32,913 nt of DNA from positions 1 to 32,913 of the IMG/VR virus record IMGVR_UViG_3300027896_000135. The stretch is one strand, 5' to 3'. This DNA is from a virus. Shown here piece after piece: positions 18,056 through 32,913 of the stretch (positions within the stretch are counted from its first letter, which is position 1; every line of letters starts with the position of its first letter). Below the pieces are notes generated by a model. It did not search any database. It worked only from the letters and a program-made list of their open reading frames with translations, and had not been told where the DNA came from. The position numbers were made by a program, and so were the translations under genes.

Positions 18056-19132
18056 TTATTTTTGAAATCTTTTCAAAGCATTTTCAGTGATAAACACATA
18101 TTTAGCTTTGCCTATGAAATCATCTAACGTCTTAGCGTTGCAATAGCTCATTGCTGATTTAAGATAGTCTTTGAAGTTCTCGGTCCATTGTTCTAGTGTA
18201 TATTCCACTTTTTGATATTTCGTAATGCCTTCTGCAGTTACAAGTTTGCTTTTTCCCCAGCTTCTTTGCACTGCTTTAGTGCTCATGCCCCTGTATTTCT
18301 TTTTAATCGGAAAGCCCCATCTCCACAGAATTTCAGCTAATTTATAGCTTATCTTGATTTTCCATAGATAATTAAAGCCTGCAGACTCGATAGCTTTGTT
18401 AAAGATAGACCCACACATAACGAAATCTGCGCCCAATGCAAGAGATTTTATTACATCAGAATAGTTTTTGACACCACCGTCTGCTACAATCTTGGTGTTT
18501 ATATCATAATGCTTTCTTAATTCATAACATTCTGAAATTAAAGATCCCATAGGATAATTAACTGACACATTAGCACTTGTAGTGCACCCAGCACCTACAC
18601 CTATCCCTACGCGAACAAAATCTGCCCCAGCTAATGCAAGGTTGATAAAAGTTTCAGGATTTCCAACATTTCCTATCATTAAAATCATTTTTGGCCATTT
18701 TTCCTTTATTTCCTTTATTAAATAAATTAAATTAGACATATGTGCATTGGCTATATCAATGAGAACATTTTTATGATTATAGAATGTTTCATCATAAGAA
18801 CGAGAATTGCGTTCGTCATTTCTTAATTCATGCAATGATTTTTCTATTTCACAAAGACCAAATGCTTGAAAATGTGGATATTCATAATCACAATCAATAT
18901 ATGTGCCTCTTGACAGACATGGAATGATTCCATTTTTTCTATATTTTTTATAATTGTCTTTTGAAGTTACAGTGTCCATGGGCGAGGACATCAAAGGCAA
19001 AGAAAAATATATTATTATACTATGTGGAGTTATAAATCGTAAACTGGTGTCACATTGTCTTCTACTATAGATATCACTTATTTCAGCAGGCATAAGAGTG
19101 ATGTCAGACAAATCCCATTTAATATTATTCAT
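18056..19132 (-). CDS. IMP dehydrogenase / GMP reductase family enzyme
   Basis: The 358-residue TIM barrel has the family hallmarks: PLMSSPMDTVTS at 46-57, IGNVGNPETF at 153-162, GADFVRVGIGVGAGCTTS with catalytic Cys183, IVADGGVKNYSDVIKSLALG at 215-234, FVMCGSIF and KYRGMSTKAVQ at 279-289. It lacks the CBS domains of most IMP dehydrogenases, and its length is near that of GMP reductase (about 346). IMPDH makes XMP from IMP for guanine supply; GMPR returns GMP to IMP. The sequence does not settle which. It is a purine metabolic gene carried by the phage. Phage IMPDH genes are among known split-intein hosts, but this one is intact. Confidence 0.85.
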   Translation of the reverse strand: MNNIKWDLSDITLMPAEISDIYSRRQCDTSLRFITPHSIIIYFSLPLMSSPMDTVTSKDNYKKYRKNGIIPCLSRGTYIDCDYEYPHFQAFGLCEIEKSLHELRNDERNSRSYDETFYNHKNVLIDIANAHMSNLIYLIKEIKEKWPKMILMIGNVGNPETFINLALAGADFVRVGIGVGAGCTTSANVSVNYPMGSLISECYELRKHYDINTKIVADGGVKNYSDVIKSLALGADFVMCGSIFNKAIESAGFNYLWKIKISYKLAEILWRWGFPIKKKYRGMSTKAVQRSWGKSKLVTAEGITKYQKVEYTLEQWTENFKDYLKSAMSYCNAKTLDDFIGKAKYVFITENALKRFQK

Positions 19133-19277: not shown

Positions 19278-20072
19278 ATGGCAAGTTTAAAAAAATCTTA
19301 TAAGTATTATTACATTTATAAAACATTTAATTTAATAAATAAAAGATGTTATGTAGGTTTTCATGCTACAGATAAAGAATATGAATATGATTATTATTAC
19401 GGAAGCGGAAAATTATTAAAACGTGCTATTAAAAAATATGAAATAAAAAATTTTATTAAAGGTGTTATAGAATATATTGATTTTCAAGAATGGCGAGAAA
19501 AGGAAATATACTGGATTAAAAAAATGCATTCTCATATTAGCGAAGGCGGGTATAATTTAACTAGAGGAGGAGAAGGATCACTAGGACGAAAGCATACTAA
19601 AAAATCAATAATAAAAATGAAAAAATATATACGTACCGAAGAACATAAAAAACATTTAAAAGAAAATAGAGCACATTTATTTGGAGAAAAAAATGGAATG
19701 TTCGGAAAAAAACATAAAAAGAAATCAATAAATAAAATGAAAAAAGCAAAACAAAATATATCTCAGGAAACGCGAGATAAATTACGTAAATCAAAAAAGG
19801 GAAAACCTAATTACAAACTTCGCGGAAGAATTAGATCTAAAGAACACTGCGAAAATATTAGAAAATCAAAATTAAATATGTCTCAAGAAACACATGATAA
19901 AATAAAAAATAATACTCGTATTGCAATGCAAAAACCTGAAATTAGAGAAAAAATAAGAATTGGTTTGAAAAAAAGAGAAAAATTAACATGTCCCATTTGT
20001 CATAAAACGATGGATCCTTCAAATTTTAAAAAATATAAACACGGTGATAATTGTAAAAATAAAAGATTATAA
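19278..20072 (+). CDS. GIY-YIG homing endonuclease with NUMOD3 repeats
   Basis: The 264-residue protein begins with a GIY-YIG-like nuclease domain: YYYIYKT at 10-16, YVGFH at 25-29, YYGSGKLLKRAIKKY at 40-54 and a Glu-containing WREKEIYWIKKM. Then come NUMOD3 DNA-binding units (SLGRKHTKKSIIKMKK, NGMFGKKHKKKSINKM) and basic helices (SQETRDKLRKSKKGK). A C-terminal CxxC...C finger (CPICHKTMDPSNF...DNC) ends it. It cuts DNA site-specifically and copies itself into cut alleles. It is on the plus strand, free-standing, with no intron traces nearby; its end overlaps the converging gene by 6 nt. Confidence 0.9.
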   Translation: MASLKKSYKYYYIYKTFNLINKRCYVGFHATDKEYEYDYYYGSGKLLKRAIKKYEIKNFIKGVIEYIDFQEWREKEIYWIKKMHSHISEGGYNLTRGGEGSLGRKHTKKSIIKMKKYIRTEEHKKHLKENRAHLFGEKNGMFGKKHKKKSINKMKKAKQNISQETRDKLRKSKKGKPNYKLRGRIRSKEHCENIRKSKLNMSQETHDKIKNNTRIAMQKPEIREKIRIGLKKREKLTCPICHKTMDPSNFKKYKHGDNCKNKRL

Positions 20073-24258: not shown

Positions 24259-25902
24259 TTATCCGCATTTACTAAATGTGCATTGCGAACAATGTCTGCA
24301 ATTTTCTTCTTGAACCATACTGCTGCCACATTCCGGACATTTCTCTAATGTTAATTCATCATCAATATATCTTGATAATGTTCTTCTAAGAGCAGATGAA
24401 AAAGAAGTTACATTTTCATCTATTTTTGATATAACATGATTCACGTATTTAACAGGAGCACCGTGTCTCAATATCATTGATGCAGACAGTGTCAGTGTTT
24501 TTTCCTCCACTCTGCTCATTGCCAAATTCAGATCTGAGATTTCAAATTCTCCATTCACAAATTTATACTCTCCTTTCTTAACTTTAATTGTTTTTCCTTT
24601 TGTGTTTTTCTCCATTGGTGGATTTTCAAATGCAAAAACTTCCCAAGGTCTGTTTGTTCCTGGCCATAGTCCCACGATAACGGCAAATTTTACTCCTTTA
24701 ACAGTTGCAACATAATAATCTGCTTCAAGAACTTTAGGTCTTTTAGGCGCATGATTGATTTTGAATTCTTCTTCTTTCTTGATCAAGACCCCAGAACGAG
24801 AGCCTTCTCTATAAACTGTAAATCCTTTGCAGCCTAGTTCCCATGCTTTCATATATAGATCTGATACAGTTTCTTTAGTTACATCTGATTTTAAATTAAC
24901 AGTTTTGCTTATGCTATGATCTATCCAATGCTGAGCAGTTGATTGGATATCTATACCTTTTAAAAAATCTATTTCATTGGCAGTTGCCTTATAATATGGA
25001 GATTTTGTTATGTCTGTTTCACCCGTTATTTCCATCCATTTTTTTAAACCATGGTGATAGACAACATACTCTTGCCATTTATCTCCATTTTGATCAATAA
25101 AATCGGGCTTTATTTCAACATTCATTATTTTTTTTCTTCTTTTATATTCCAACATAAAAATTGGTTCTATGCCAGAAGATGTTTGTGTCATAAGACTTAC
25201 TGTACCTGTTGGACTTTGGGTATTACATGCTATATTTCTTCTTCCATATTTTTTATAATCTTCATATAATTCTTTATCTGCAAGCCATAATTTAGTAAGA
25301 AAAGAATGATCTTTTTCTAATTCTAAATTAAAAATTGGAAAGGTTCCGCGTTCTTTTGCAAGATTAATAGACGATTTATATGTATTTAAAACTAAAGTTT
25401 TATATATTTCATTTACTTCTTTGATAGATTCATCAGAACTATATTTGATATTTAAATAAGCTAACGCATCACCCAAAGATGTTAGTCCTAAGCCTGTTCG
25501 TCTTCCATTAATTGCATTTTGTTTAATTTTGTTCCATAATTCTGTTTCTACTCTTTTAGTTTCATGATTTTCAGGATCATTTTTTATTTTTTTAAGTATT
25601 TTATCAATTTGTTCTAATTCGAGGTCTACTAAATCATCCATCAATCTTTGTGCTATCTGAATATGTTTTGCAAATAGTATGTAATTAAATTTTGCCTTTT
25701 CTGTAAAATAATTTTCTACATAACTAATTAAGTTTAAAACCATTAAACGACAACTATCGTATGAAGATAAACATAATTCTGCACAATTATGAACTAATAA
25801 ATCATTAGCAAAAAAATTATAATTATCTCTAACAGATATGTCATACACGTCTTCATTTTGTATAACATTTATTTTTTTAATCTTGACTTCTTTTATCTTC
25901 AT
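24259..25902 (-). CDS. nrdJ: Ribonucleotide reductase class II (NrdJ), C-terminal part preceded by C-terminal split intein
   Basis: The 547-residue product starts with a 39-residue C-intein (MKIKEVKIKKINVIQNEDVY ... NFFANDLLVHN) and then the extein from Cys40 (CAELCLSSYDSC). The extein carries the class II reductase core: GRRTGLGLTSLGDALAYL at 133-150, ACNTQSPTGTVSLMTQTSSG at 225-244, EPIFMLEYKRRKK and a Cys-rich C-terminal zinc ribbon (522-547). Class II enzymes reduce ribonucleotides using adenosylcobalamin. After splicing to the N-part at 26755-27942 the mature enzyme would be about 799 residues, with the essential active-site Cys as the +1 residue. The start overlaps the endonuclease gene by 26 nt. 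Confidence 0.92.
   Translation of the reverse strand: MKIKEVKIKKINVIQNEDVYDISVRDNYNFFANDLLVHNCAELCLSSYDSCRLMVLNLISYVENYFTEKAKFNYILFAKHIQIAQRLMDDLVDLELEQIDKILKKIKNDPENHETKRVETELWNKIKQNAINGRRTGLGLTSLGDALAYLNIKYSSDESIKEVNEIYKTLVLNTYKSSINLAKERGTFPIFNLELEKDHSFLTKLWLADKELYEDYKKYGRRNIACNTQSPTGTVSLMTQTSSGIEPIFMLEYKRRKKIMNVEIKPDFIDQNGDKWQEYVVYHHGLKKWMEITGETDITKSPYYKATANEIDFLKGIDIQSTAQHWIDHSISKTVNLKSDVTKETVSDLYMKAWELGCKGFTVYREGSRSGVLIKKEEEFKINHAPKRPKVLEADYYVATVKGVKFAVIVGLWPGTNRPWEVFAFENPPMEKNTKGKTIKVKKGEYKFVNGEFEISDLNLAMSRVEEKTLTLSASMILRHGAPVKYVNHVISKIDENVTSFSSALRRTLSRYIDDELTLEKCPECGSSMVQEENCRHCSQCTFSKCG
25786..25902 (-). other. C-terminal half of a split intein (Int-C, 39 aa)
   Basis: Residues 1-39 of the downstream gene: block F DVYDISVRDNYNFFANDL and block G LLVHN followed by Cys +1. 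Terminal Asn and the penultimate His are the residues that cyclise and release the intein. Known split NrdJ inteins have a C-half of nearly the same length and the same NFFANDILVHN end. Confidence 0.9.
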
Positions 25903-26704
25903 GGTTCATTATTCTTTTTAGTTTCCATTCTTTGACATTATTAATATTTTTTTCACAATACGGAGCAATATCAGTTATCAATATAAATTCAATATCTTTT
26001 TTTAATTGTTTTTTTAATTCTTCATATTTATATACTTTATCTTTCCAATATCCCTTTATTTCAACTATCTGTATAATCTTTTTATTATTTATTTTATCAA
26101 ATATAAAAAAATCGGGTCTATATGATTTATTTTCACTTATTTTATATAATGTACATTCTACATCCCATATTATATTTTTTGAATCTAACCATTTGGCGTA
26201 AATATATTCCCAAGAACTTCTTAACCACACATATTTTTTAAAATATTTATTATAATAATACCCCTGAATTCCTCGTGCACATGAATTTTTTATTTTAACT
26301 TTTTTTATACATTCTTCAGATGCCCATCCTATTTTATTTTGTACTTCATATAAAGCTTTTTCTTTTCTTATTTTATGCAAATGATCTGTGATTTCATTAT
26401 GTTTTCTTAGTATAATATCAAAAAAAGATTTCAATGTCATTCTTAAAACAGGATATGTTATTGGCAAATTTAAATACTTTATCATATATTTTATTCCATA
26501 TTCTTTTTCATAATAATAATAATGTAATAATTTTTTACATTCTTGGTATCTTTCATCTTGTTTTATTCCCTCTACATCATGACCTGTATTTCCTCTGCAT
26601 ATAGGTATTCCGTGTTCATTTACAGTATGTTTAATAATAGTAATATAAAACTTTTTATTTTGAATATCACTTAACAAACTTCTTAATTTTAATAATTCAT
26701 CCAT
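25877..26704 (-). CDS. Free-standing PD-(D/E)XK-type homing endonuclease between the two reductase halves
   Basis: The 275-residue protein has an N-terminal helical DNA-binding-like part (LLHYYYYEKEYGIKYMIKYL ...) and a C-terminal nuclease core: VWLRSSWEYIYAKWLDSKNI at about 160-180, RPDFFIFD near 199-206 and IVEIKGYW near 218-225. The PD ... ExK arrangement with RSSWE is typical of phage homing endonucleases of restriction-enzyme or Vsr-like fold. It should cut reductase genes lacking the intein, allowing the split intein locus to spread. It has its own late-type TATAAATA 12 nt before the ATG, like intron endonucleases of T4 that are made late. Its stop overlaps the start of the C-part by 26 nt. 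Confidence 0.85.
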   Translation of the reverse strand: MDELLKLRSLLSDIQNKKFYITIIKHTVNEHGIPICRGNTGHDVEGIKQDERYQECKKLLHYYYYEKEYGIKYMIKYLNLPITYPVLRMTLKSFFDIILRKHNEITDHLHKIRKEKALYEVQNKIGWASEECIKKVKIKNSCARGIQGYYYNKYFKKYVWLRSSWEYIYAKWLDSKNIIWDVECTLYKISENKSYRPDFFIFDKINNKKIIQIVEIKGYWKDKVYKYEELKKQLKKDIEFILITDIAPYCEKNINNVKEWKLKRIMNHEDKRSQD

Positions 26705-26716
26705 AATCCTTGCTTT

Positions 26717-26724
26717 TATTTATA
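26717..26724 (-). promoter_or_regulatory. Late-type promoter element TATAAATA before the endonuclease
   Basis: An exact minus-strand TATAAATA (in ATATATAAATAAAAGC), 12 nt before the ATG at 26704 and 31 nt after the reductase N-part stop. It would uncouple endonuclease expression from the early reductase transcript. Confidence 0.55.
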
Positions 26725-26754
26725 TATTTATATTAAAAGCGAGGATTATTACCC

Positions 26755-27942
26755 TTATTGCATGTCTAATTCTAATAAAATATCGTTTTCTGTAAGTTTT
26801 GCCGCTTCAACCCATCCTCTATTTTTTGTATAGACTTTATGGTCAGGCGTTAATTTAATTCGTTTTCCATCTTCAAGTTCTAATTCAATAACGTTTGCTT
26901 TTATTTTTGTTAAACTAGCATAATCTAAATTTTTATGTTCTAATTGAGATGTTTTTATATTATAAGACATAATATAAATTTCATTTTTCATTTTTTGAAA
27001 ATTATCACTTAATTCACGGATAGTTATTTTTCCTTGTGAAGTTTCAATTAAAGTATCACCTGTTAAGCACGGGTTGACTCCCGTGGTCTGAAAACCATAA
27101 TCTTTATATATGTCTGATGGTGTATTTTTTAATATAGTATCCCAAAATAAAATTCCTGGTTCAGCTTGCTCCCATGTATTTGATATAAATAAATTCCATA
27201 ATTTTTTTGCATCAATCTCTTTAAAAATAATTGGATTTTTTTCTGGCCATTTTTGTACATACATCTTATTATTTTTAACGGCCATCATAAATTCATCATT
27301 CACTCGAATAGAAATATTAGCGCCAGTTACTTTAGTTCTGTCATTTTTTATTGTTATAAATGTTTCTATTTGTGGATGATTAACAGCACATGATAAAATT
27401 AGTGCTCCGCGTCTTCCATTTTGCGCGACTTCTCTAGTTGTATTTGAAAATCTTTCCATGAATATGCCTATGCCGTCTGTAGTTTTTGCAGCATTGTTAG
27501 TTTGCATACCTTTGGGCCTTATGTTTGAGATATCAAAGCCTACTCCTCCTCGTCTTTTCATGAGTTGAGCCTGTTCCTGATCAGTTCTGAGAATCCCACC
27601 ATAAGAATCTGCTGGAGATTCTATAACAAAACAATTTGATAAGCTTTGTAATCTATAATCATTTCCTATGCCCTCCATAGGAGATCCTTGCGGAATAATA
27701 TATTTAAAATGATCAAAGTATGAAAAGATCTCTTCTTCAGAGATTGGATTAGGATATTTTTGCTCTATTCTTGCAAATTCTTTAGCTAATCTTTTATGTG
27801 TGTCTTCGGGAGTTAATTCTTTAAAATTTCCTTCTTTATCTTGTAATGCATATTTTGACATCCAAACATCACAAGCCATTGCATCTCCTGAAAAATATGA
27901 TAATGTAGCTTCTTTGACTTCTTCATGGGTATAGTTTGCCAT
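26755..27942 (-). CDS. nrdJ: Ribonucleotide reductase class II (NrdJ), N-terminal part ending in N-terminal split intein
   Basis: The 395-residue product has reductase extein at 1-291, with NCFVIESPADSYGGI at 103-117, RRGGVGFDISNIRPKG at 130-145, and EPGILFWDTIL near 261-271. It ends at the active-site motif VNP, where the intein begins at Cys292 (CLTGDTLIETSQGK). Residues 292-395 form the N-intein with block B LTPDHKVYTKNRGWVEAAKL and the end DILLELDMQ. There is no ATP-cone domain at the N-terminus. The protein is inactive until spliced to the part at 24259-25902. The arrangement matches 'fractured genes' known from phage metagenomes. Confidence 0.92.
   Translation of the reverse strand: MANYTHEEVKEATLSYFSGDAMACDVWMSKYALQDKEGNFKELTPEDTHKRLAKEFARIEQKYPNPISEEEIFSYFDHFKYIIPQGSPMEGIGNDYRLQSLSNCFVIESPADSYGGILRTDQEQAQLMKRRGGVGFDISNIRPKGMQTNNAAKTTDGIGIFMERFSNTTREVAQNGRRGALILSCAVNHPQIETFITIKNDRTKVTGANISIRVNDEFMMAVKNNKMYVQKWPEKNPIIFKEIDAKKLWNLFISNTWEQAEPGILFWDTILKNTPSDIYKDYGFQTTGVNPCLTGDTLIETSQGKITIRELSDNFQKMKNEIYIMSYNIKTSQLEHKNLDYASLTKIKANVIELELEDGKRIKLTPDHKVYTKNRGWVEAAKLTENDILLELDMQ
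26758..27069 (-). other. N-terminal half of a split intein (Int-N, 104 aa)
   Basis: Begins with catalytic Cys1 in block A (CLTGDTLIETSQGKITIREL) and contains block B TPDH, whose Thr and His help the N-S acyl shift. It stops at the classic split site and has no linker endonuclease domain, so it is a mini split intein with its endonuclease encoded separately. Confidence 0.9.
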
Positions 27943-28113: not shown

Positions 28114-29556
28114 TTAGTTTAGTTGTTTACTAACTTCTTTTTTTCTTTGTTTCAAGATTTTTTTAAGTTCATCGGCTTCTTTTTCTGCTAATAAAGAAAC
28201 CTTTTTTGCATCTTTTCTTTGTGTATAGTAATCTGTTAAAATTGTTGATAATAGAGGGTCATAAGATGCATCAAAGACTGCTCCACTATAAGTTTTAATT
28301 TGATCAGCTTTTGGCACATGATTTTTGTCTTTAAACAAGAAATTTTCTATAGATATTTTAAACTGTCGTTGAATGCTTGGATATAGAGAGCTAAAATCAA
28401 ATATTGCTACCCATGGATATATGCCTCTTATAGGCTCAAAAACAAAAGCTCCTTCATATTGCTCTCTTTCTTTTGATTCTTCTCTTTTTGGAAATATTTG
28501 TCCACGTTTATATGCATATCTTGTTAACGTAGCTTCTAGCATTGCAATTGGTGAAAATGCTGTCATTGCTTCTACTCGAGTGATATTTCCTAAGCCTAAA
28601 AATGTTGCCATTGTCTTTAGCTTTAAGTCTAGAAGCTCTATAAGAACCGTGTCAATGCAATTATATATAATATACTTTACATAATCTTTGTTATACATGT
28701 CTTGAAGATTTCCAGAATATTGCAATTTTTTGATTCCTAATGCTTCTTCAGAAACAAAATCTAGAGTGTCATTTTCTTTAACTTCAATAGTTCTATCCCA
28801 TTTTTGATAGATTGCCATGTAATCAATTATCAATTTATGTTGTGGCAGCATTATCTCAACACTTTCGTTATGATCTTTTATTTTTTGTGGAAACCATTGT
28901 CCTGTCGGAGATAACCAGTCTACATTTAAATTTAATTTCTTGCATCTGTTCATCATATATCTCCAATCATATCCCCAGAAATTCCATCCAGTTATCAAAA
29001 TAGCTTGTCTTGCATAATTATAGAGAAAATCATAAAGCATATCTGCTTCATTTTTGTGATATTTATAAATGAAGTTGTACTTCTTATCAGATTTCGAGAT
29101 ATGCTCATTTATGCCACGTTCAATTTCAGCACATTCTTCACCTGATAAAATCTTATTGCCAAATGTAACGATGTCAGGATATTGTGAAAAAGAAATGCTA
29201 TTAATTCTATTATTTGCAGTTGAAGGTTCAGCAAATCCTTCATCTGTGACTTCAACTTCAATATCACAAGCAGATAATATCGGCATGTTTGCTTCGAACA
29301 AATGAGCTGTAGCATCTTCACCTGCATCCATGAAAAACTCTTGAATTCTGTGTCTATTTATAAACTGAGTTGCAATCTTTCTTACCGGTCTAAAATCCCA
29401 AGAAAGCAATCCAGGAATTCCTCTATTCTTTTGAGCATATGCATAGATATATTGATGTGAAGGTGGAATAACTAGTTGTGTAAACCCGATTGTCCCATCT
29501 ATTTTAACATAAGAAATTATAAGTTTTCCTTGGCGCTGCTCAATATTTAAAATCAT
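28114..29556 (-). CDS. B-family DNA polymerase, exonuclease and motif A half (gp43A-like)
   Basis: The 480-residue protein is T4-type polymerase: 3'-5' exonuclease motifs DIE (Asp98/Glu100), GWNFWGYDWRY (Asp197) and YNCIDT (Asp302), then palm motif A DFSSLYPSI at 387-395. It stops at KKEVSKQLN, just before where motif B (KxxxNSLYG) is expected. Motif C (DTD) is absent too, and neither motif is found anywhere in the window. In some T4-related Aeromonas phages gene 43 is naturally split at this point into 43A and 43B, which work as a complex. So the partner is either elsewhere in the genome or lost at an assembly join. The codon use is normal, with no sign of decay. Confidence 0.9.
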   Translation of the reverse strand: MILNIEQRQGKLIISYVKIDGTIGFTQLVIPPSHQYIYAYAQKNRGIPGLLSWDFRPVRKIATQFINRHRIQEFFMDAGEDATAHLFEANMPILSACDIEVEVTDEGFAEPSTANNRINSISFSQYPDIVTFGNKILSGEECAEIERGINEHISKSDKKYNFIYKYHKNEADMLYDFLYNYARQAILITGWNFWGYDWRYMMNRCKKLNLNVDWLSPTGQWFPQKIKDHNESVEIMLPQHKLIIDYMAIYQKWDRTIEVKENDTLDFVSEEALGIKKLQYSGNLQDMYNKDYVKYIIYNCIDTVLIELLDLKLKTMATFLGLGNITRVEAMTAFSPIAMLEATLTRYAYKRGQIFPKREESKEREQYEGAFVFEPIRGIYPWVAIFDFSSLYPSIQRQFKISIENFLFKDKNHVPKADQIKTYSGAVFDASYDPLLSTILTDYYTQRKDAKKVSLLAEKEADELKKILKQRKKEVSKQLN

Positions 29557-31776: not shown

Positions 31777-32913
31777 CTAAAACATTCCATAATATTCTAT
31801 AATATCACCTGCATGTAATGTGCTACTGATTCTCTTATCCTTAAGTAAAAGCTTTATCATTTTTAAACCTTCGGGAGAATTTTTCGGCGCCCATGTCAAT
31901 AACGCTGAGCCTATGTGTGAATAAAAATTGGTGTAAGCAGCTCTGGGTTCTATATTCAACCTCGAGTCCTTCAACAATTCTTTGACAACATTATAATGAT
32001 TAGCTTGAATTGCGTGTCTTAATGCAAAATTATTTTCTGTGCTTGGGTCCACTCTTGGATCTTTCAACAACAGCTTAACAATTTCCAGATTAGTTGTGTC
32101 ACCTTCATTATAATATGCGTAAGATGCATGTCTGATCGCTGAATTGTCCTGCACTGTAGGGTCAGCGCCTTCATCTAATGCCTCTTTGACAAGCCATGTG
32201 ATCCCGTACATGTATCCCGCAATCAGCTTTTGATCAGGCTCGGCTTTTTTGGCGCCTTCCTTGACAAGCCAATCAATTTTATGACTACCACCATAGTTCA
32301 ATAATTTATGAGCGCTGAGGTCTTTTTCTTCTAATGCCAATTTTATCAGCCAATCTATTTTATGTGTACATCCAGCTTCAAATTTAATGCTAGGATCTAT
32401 ATGTTCTTCAGAGACAGCTTCTCTGATGACCCAATCTAAGTTGTTTTTGCATCCGAACAAAAACTTGTCTAATGTTGACAGATCTTTAATAGATTGTCTC
32501 ATTTCATCTTCAGATCTTGGTGTAAGATGCTTGATGCTTTCATTGACTTTTTTTGTTACATCTCGTTTTAGCAGCTTCACCACTTCAGCATGCCCATTGT
32601 TGCTTGCCCACCACAATGCCAAATCATCTCTTGCATGCACATTTGCTCCAGCATTAAGCAGCAGCTTCACCATCTCAGCATGCCCATAGTAGCTTGCATT
32701 TTGTAAAGCCCCATCATCCCATGCATGCACATCTGCTCCAGCATCTAGCAGCACCTTCACCATCTCAGCATGCCCATTATCGCTTGCCATTCGTAAAGCA
32801 TAATCATTTATTGCATGCACATCTGCTCCAGCATCCAACAACAATTGCACCACTTCAACATGCCCATTGCCGCTTGCCCATCGCAGAGCCTCATCATTAT
32901 CTGCATGCACATC
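31777..32913 (-). CDS. Ankyrin-repeat fusion protein with an internal tag (5' end outside window)
   Basis: The frame is open to the window end and joins 1-358 in frame through the terminal repeat. From the N-terminus it has several near-identical ankyrin units (GHAEMVKVLLDAGADVHA), then KLLKRDVTKKVNESIKHLTP (bases near 32570-32510), which is the shared tag in mid-protein with no start codon. After it comes a second half: four degenerate units with the core IDWLVKEA, then ankyrin-like units (TNLEIVKLLLKDPRVDP, HYNVVKELLKDSRLN). This looks like two tandem tagged ankyrin genes fused by loss of the first stop. It ends IIEYYGMF. Function unknown. Confidence 0.85.
   Translation of the reverse strand, partial: DVHADNDEALRWASGNGHVEVVQLLLDAGADVHAINDYALRMASDNGHAEMVKVLLDAGADVHAWDDGALQNASYYGHAEMVKLLLNAGANVHARDDLALWWASNNGHAEVVKLLKRDVTKKVNESIKHLTPRSEDEMRQSIKDLSTLDKFLFGCKNNLDWVIREAVSEEHIDPSIKFEAGCTHKIDWLIKLALEEKDLSAHKLLNYGGSHKIDWLVKEGAKKAEPDQKLIAGYMYGITWLVKEALDEGADPTVQDNSAIRHASYAYYNEGDTTNLEIVKLLLKDPRVDPSTENNFALRHAIQANHYNVVKELLKDSRLNIEPRAAYTNFYSHIGSALLTWAPKNSPEGLKMIKLLLKDKRISSTLHAGDIIEYYGMF
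32787..32913. repeat. 127-bp terminal direct repeat (copy of 1-127)
   Basis: Second copy of the exact terminal overlap; see the entry at 1-127. Both copies lie in the same ankyrin frame. Confidence 0.95.

Follow-up and report, generated by a model that had tools for sequence, protein, structure and literature searches.

Among described systems, the closest are NrdJ-1, a split intein with demonstrated fast trans-splicing (PMC7090010), and the fractured genes of phages, in which a split intein interrupts an enzyme gene and a separate endonuclease gene lies between its halves (Dassa et al. 2009, NAR 37:2560). PMC3653736 summarises the ocean data of the latter study as seven nrdA and two nrdJ genes interrupted by inteins. 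We analysed a locus with the same layout in an IMG/VR virus record (IMGVR_UViG_3300027896_000135; 32,913 bases, hereafter the window), where the interrupted gene is the ribonucleotide reductase (RNR) gene nrdJ. With a probability of roughly 0.88, we interpret this locus as a mobile fractured-gene element in phage nrdJ, which would combine trans-splicing with endonuclease-driven homing. The reading is based on the anatomy, the catalytic motifs, the insertion site, and the co-inheritance and horizontal spread in relatives of the trio of N-intein, endonuclease and C-intein; that the halves splice, that the endonuclease cuts and that RNR activity depends on splicing are inferences.

The fractured nrdJ genes all lie on the minus strand and comprise the following features:

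27942-26755, minus strand: gene for nrdJ-N and the N-intein
27070..27942, minus strand: N-extein of class II RNR (NrdJ), 291 amino acids (aa), ending TTGVNP (Pfam Ribonuc_red_lgC 1.3e-31, phrog_84)
26755..27069, minus strand: N-intein, 104 aa (CLTGDTLI...), with Cys1 and block B TPDH; stop codon at 26757-26755 (Pfam Intein_splicing 3.5e-11)
26732-26725 and 26724-26717, minus strand: two abutting TATAAATA boxes resembling a T4 late promoter, 12 nt 5' of the endonuclease ATG
25877..26704, minus strand: free-standing endonuclease, 275 aa; a helical N-terminal part with a helix-turn-helix (HTH), then a PD-(D/E)xK nuclease
25877..25902, minus strand: 26-nt overlap between the 3' end of the endonuclease gene and the start of the C-half gene
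25902-24259, minus strand: gene for the C-intein and nrdJ-C
25786..25902, minus strand: C-intein, 39 aa, ending ...NFFANDLLVHN, with block F His replaced by Tyr (Pfam Intein_splicing 9.8e-6)
25783..25785, minus strand: +1 Cys codon, aligned with T. maritima NrdJ Cys322
24259..25785, minus strand: C-extein of NrdJ, 508 aa, starting CAELCLSSYDSC, with C-terminal CxxC motifs; stop codon at 24261-24259 (Pfam Ribonuc_red_lgC 2.8e-47, phrog_84 9e-53)

Judged by alignment, the locus is a class II RNR: the N-extein matches T. maritima NrdJ (1xje) at 1.9e-16, and the first residue of the C-extein aligns with Cys322 of that enzyme, which we take to be the thiyl-radical cysteine, placing the radical Cys in the NPC motif. 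It is also a fractured gene, with the enzyme in two open reading frames (ORFs) that carry complementary split-intein halves and a separate endonuclease ORF between them. The two intein halves cover positions 4-93 and 121-155 of Pfam PF14890, and the RNR is broken exactly ahead of the radical cysteine (NP|C). The elements named in the initial annotation (the VNP end, Cys1, the 104-aa N-intein, the endonuclease and the 39-aa C-intein ending LLVHN) were all recovered on the minus strand where it had placed them, with domain matches far beyond chance. Our results agree with its reading of the locus, in which the halves of a split intein fracture a class II RNR and a PD-(D/E)xK endonuclease stands free between them. 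Its proposal that the active-site Cys is the +1 splicing residue fits the alignment to Cys322, and the alignment to known NrdJ split inteins that it suggested revealed an N-intein match to NrdJ-1 (PDB 8ubs) at 7e-15.

Relatives were gathered by three scans of viral contigs and by sequence comparison, which gave 58 non-redundant loci, window included, that contain an N-intein, a window-type endonuclease and a C-intein in succession within an RNR gene. The insertion site was the RNR NPC motif in all 58, with the break at NP|C (+1 Cys) in 32 loci, at NPC|C in 14 and at NPC|S in 12. One locus (L113) encodes NrdJ-1 itself: every aligned residue is identical in the N-intein (104 of 104) and in the C-intein (39 of 39); the partner nuclease of NrdJ-1 therefore belongs to the endonuclease family of the window. 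The pairing of this intein type with this endonuclease form had been marked as worth comparing and, because the same family occurs in 58 RNR loci including the natural NrdJ-1 locus, it is the usual one for this class of intein, and the window is no special case. Contiguous mini-inteins without an endonuclease occupy the same codon in three further loci (L021, L022, L029), and those of L021 and L029 may be either ancestral or re-fused, as an approximately unbiased (AU) test against one clade gave p 0.28. Intein-free alleles, which the initial annotation had recommended looking for, were found in two loci (L023 and L024) and in a cultured phage of Bacteroides, DAC22. In its relatives DAC16 and SJC03, also cultured Bacteroides phages, a cis intein of the LAGLIDADG type interrupts the same NP|C codon; these three genomes (L054, L055 and L056) form a natural presence/absence pair.

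Other irregularities were observed within RNR genes of the collection. Additional intein-like starts are found in the same RNR gene of L006, L015 and L098, e.g., VKPAG|C, VKPSG|C and QFC|VSPDTPLIT. A stop codon falls 3-4 codons past the C-intein in L028 (7131-7380) and L119 (about 5111), and in L028 the C-extein picks up again about 250 nt further on, as if an intron adjoined the split intein. Rfam gave no matches in the window, L028 or L119.

Comparison of the window with its 57 relatives indicates, at the level of sequence, that the trio passes from virus to virus as a single package. Identity across the element is 84-90% in four pairs of loci (L065/L077, L065/L079, L114/L100 and L104/L098), against mostly 63-74% in the RNR sequence up to 600 nt on either side; the downstream flank of L104/L098 is at 44%, and the C-extein there bears a further insertion. 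The steps in identity coincide with the splice junctions in these four pairs, and since the trio is far more alike than its flanks, with edges at the junctions, it appears to move as a unit. In the same pairs extein synonymous divergence (dS) is mostly saturated or much larger, compared with a trio dS of 0.13-1.21, and the ratio of nonsynonymous to synonymous divergence (dN/dS) of the endonuclease is 0.06-0.28 in close pairs. Furthermore, across 26 NP|C loci the Mantel r was 0.72 between endonuclease and intein, 0.18 between endonuclease and extein, and 0.95 in the control comparison of N- and C-exteins; among the 14 nearest NrdJ loci the contrast was weaker (0.94 for endonuclease-intein versus 0.65 for endonuclease-extein). 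The window and its sister phage L018 share 80% identity in the family B DNA polymerase (PolB) and 87% in the N-extein, but 40% in the inteins and 50% in the endonucleases, with nucleotide identity dropping over the last 60 nt 5' of the site and about 120 nt 3' of it. Different elements therefore seem to hold the same site in these sister phages.

Five residues of the endonuclease (E166, P197, D198, E215 and K217) were invariant across 20 aligned sequences and constitute a PD-(D/E)xK signature; together with the AlphaFold2 model (pLDDT, the predicted local distance difference test, of 88.5), this indicates that the protein is a PD-(D/E)xK nuclease on a restriction-endonuclease-like fold. Assignment to the EDxHD/Vsr nucleases was ruled out, as the EDxHD motif is absent and E166, PD198 and E215-x-K217 are the invariant residues. 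When the nuclease core was compared using VIA-align, TnsA was the best match (Z 9.5 and 9.2), followed by a next match at 6.4; I-Bth0305I scored 5.6 and Vsr 5.2. The likeness to TnsA is suggestive, because models lacking clear matches usually reach a top Z of 7 to 8. The sequence profile of the endonuclease matched T7 endonuclease I at 3.6e-4, and the T7 endonuclease I family PF05367 was matched by 6 of 20 relatives at E up to 0.1 (best 3.7e-5), with no match for the window protein. HTH families were matched by several of the relatives. Foldseek returned no significant PDB match for the model (best E 0.095); leads came solely from VIA-align and the sequence profile. No relatives were found by tblastn of the window endonuclease against 50,697 phage records, and one peptide pattern scanned in genome contigs revealed no endonuclease relative. 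With the endonuclease relatives as queries, distant domain matches were detected in two huge-phage records only, with no split intein nearby.

Gene overlaps and Shine-Dalgarno sites were counted in 52 trios. The endonuclease stop codon lies beyond the C-half start codon in 46 of these, and in 33 loci the C-half ATG arises, in another frame, from the Trp codon conserved in the C-terminal motif of the endonuclease (gaATGGaaa, encoding E-W-K). A Shine-Dalgarno-like stretch precedes the C-half start in 37 of 52 loci, in comparison to 15% of random 12-mers. On these counts, the endonuclease gene usually overlaps the C-half gene, whose start codon and Shine-Dalgarno site it contains. The window is an exception, with a C-half start further downstream, the 26-nt overlap, and no clear Shine-Dalgarno sequence. 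The initial annotation had also given the endonuclease a TATAAATA signal of its own, which receives some support: in 9 of 58 trios such a box stands ahead of the endonuclease, no more than 90 nt past the stop of the N-intein, versus 1.9 expected in shuffles. The boxes are compatible with a T4-type late promoter.

The proposed dedicated PD-(D/E)xK family and the proposed embedded start site may be new; a literature search, in which Dassa 2009 was not covered, found no paper linking this endonuclease family with split inteins. We tentatively suggest, while considering it somewhat less probable than its opposite, that the endonucleases of these trios form an undescribed homing-endonuclease family (HTH plus a TnsA/T7-endonuclease-I-like PD-(D/E)xK core) that is tied to split inteins of the NrdJ-1 type and specialised on the active-site codons of RNR. 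On this reading, the endonuclease gene would also supply the region in which translation of the downstream RNR half begins, and the split would thereby be locked in.

In the proposed mechanism the two RNR halves would be made as separate translation products, and the intein halves would associate and trans-splice, with Cys1 attacking first, the catalytic RNR cysteine acting as the +1 nucleophile and Asn cyclising, to yield a single NrdJ chain with the NPCAEL motif. During co-infection, the PD-(D/E)xK endonuclease would recognise and cut intein-free RNR genes at the NPC codons, and repair would copy N-intein, endonuclease and C-intein together. Cys1 and the block B Thr and His are invariant in 58 of 58 trios, as is the terminal Asn, whereas the penultimate His is present in 54 and block F His in 42. 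The window copy keeps Cys1, block B Thr and His, the penultimate His and Asn; it looks competent from these residues and would be expected to splice, though maybe more slowly with Tyr in block F. Splicing would presumably be required for RNR activity, and we word this with caution because a naturally split phage NrdA, generated by homing endonuclease insertion, reportedly works as two peptides (Friedrich 2007, as described in PMC10448857). That precedent favours a gene in pieces without splicing, in which the two RNR polypeptides would associate non-covalently and work unspliced, as is reported of the split NrdA of Aeromonas phage Aeh1. We nevertheless find this very improbable for the window, since a non-splicing remnant would not keep the invariant Cys1, TxxH and terminal Asn, and the radical cysteine would sit behind a 39-aa C-intein.

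Slim chances likewise attach to a decaying intein that leaves nrdJ a pseudogene in pieces: the block F Tyr and the lack, in the window C-half, of the embedded start site found in most relatives would fit decay, but every frame is open, RNR, intein and nuclease all have their catalytic residues, and comparison with the sister phage gives an extein dN/dS of 0.10 (N) and 0.23 (C). The endonuclease could also be passive or domesticated, for example as a resolvase, sitting between the halves with no role in homing; the distant relationship of its core to T7 endonuclease I and to Holliday junction resolvases in PHROG would fit this. Such a passive nuclease, too, we regard as unlikely in the extreme, given that every trio-complete match of an IMG/VR profile scan was found in an RNR gene with a split intein half on either side, that the trio spreads among diverged hosts with sharp edges, and that an HTH-type DNA-binding part is present. 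Three observations weigh against a mobile, trans-splicing element: block F His is missing from 16 of 58 trios, the window among them; the AU test against the window and L018 endonucleases as sisters was borderline (p 0.05); and the record is a 32.9-kb fragment, so further copies of nrdJ elsewhere in the genome are possible.

Next to the locus, at 28114-29556 (minus strand), the window encodes a PolB that ends at aa 480, ahead of the KxxxNSxYG region. A second split-intein gene was considered here and rejected, as polB is free of intein sequence and the window showed no C-half motif. PolB also stops at about 475-508 aa in the sister phage L018, in L027 and in the huge phage LR756500; based on these similar ends, it appears to be a two-gene enzyme in the lineage of the window. 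An ankyrin-repeat protein (Pfam 8.5e-33) is encoded at the record edge (31777-32910, minus strand). A second homing endonuclease (19278-20072, plus strand; phrog_314, GIY-YIG-type matches) lies on the opposite strand and adjoins an intact IMPDH-like gene (18056-19132). In addition, the peptide MKAKLVKESL is the identical start of three neighbouring, otherwise unlike proteins (23718-23233, 23150-22842 and 22832-22473, minus strand).

These results show NrdJ-1, a split intein in wide use, in its native context, as part of a mobile trio whose nuclease is predicted to target the most conserved RNR codons. The 58 natural trios, together with the empty sites, the contiguous mini-inteins and the one-codon register shift, provide material on how inteins become split, and offer many new split-intein pairs and candidate site-specific nucleases.

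Compared with known systems, the window is closest to NrdJ-1 (PDB 8ubs, 9omb), with which it shares homologous halves, a split point between blocks B and F, the same host enzyme motif and, in the natural locus L113, the same endonuclease family between the halves. The half lengths are also similar (104+39 in the window, 105+40 in NrdJ-1), although N-intein identity is modest, and NrdJ-1 is inserted one codon later (NPC|S, +1 Ser), in contrast to NP|C with the radical Cys at +1 in the window. Of the fractured-gene loci of Dassa et al. 2009, half are reported to carry an endonuclease related to Vsr (EDxHD), whereas the window has a PD-(D/E)xK nuclease; the remaining loci could include the window family. 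I-Bth0305I and the other EDxHD homing endonucleases belong to the same nuclease superfamily, but the window motif is E, PD and E-x-K. The PD-(D/E)xK core is shared with T7 endonuclease I and TnsA, from which the window endonuclease differs by its extra helical N-terminal HTH region and by occurring here only inside fractured RNR genes. The LAGLIDADG-type RNR inteins of DAC16 and SJC03 have the NP|C insertion codon in common with the window; unlike it, they are contiguous cis inteins of about 320 aa that end in TSQ|C and are encoded in one gene.

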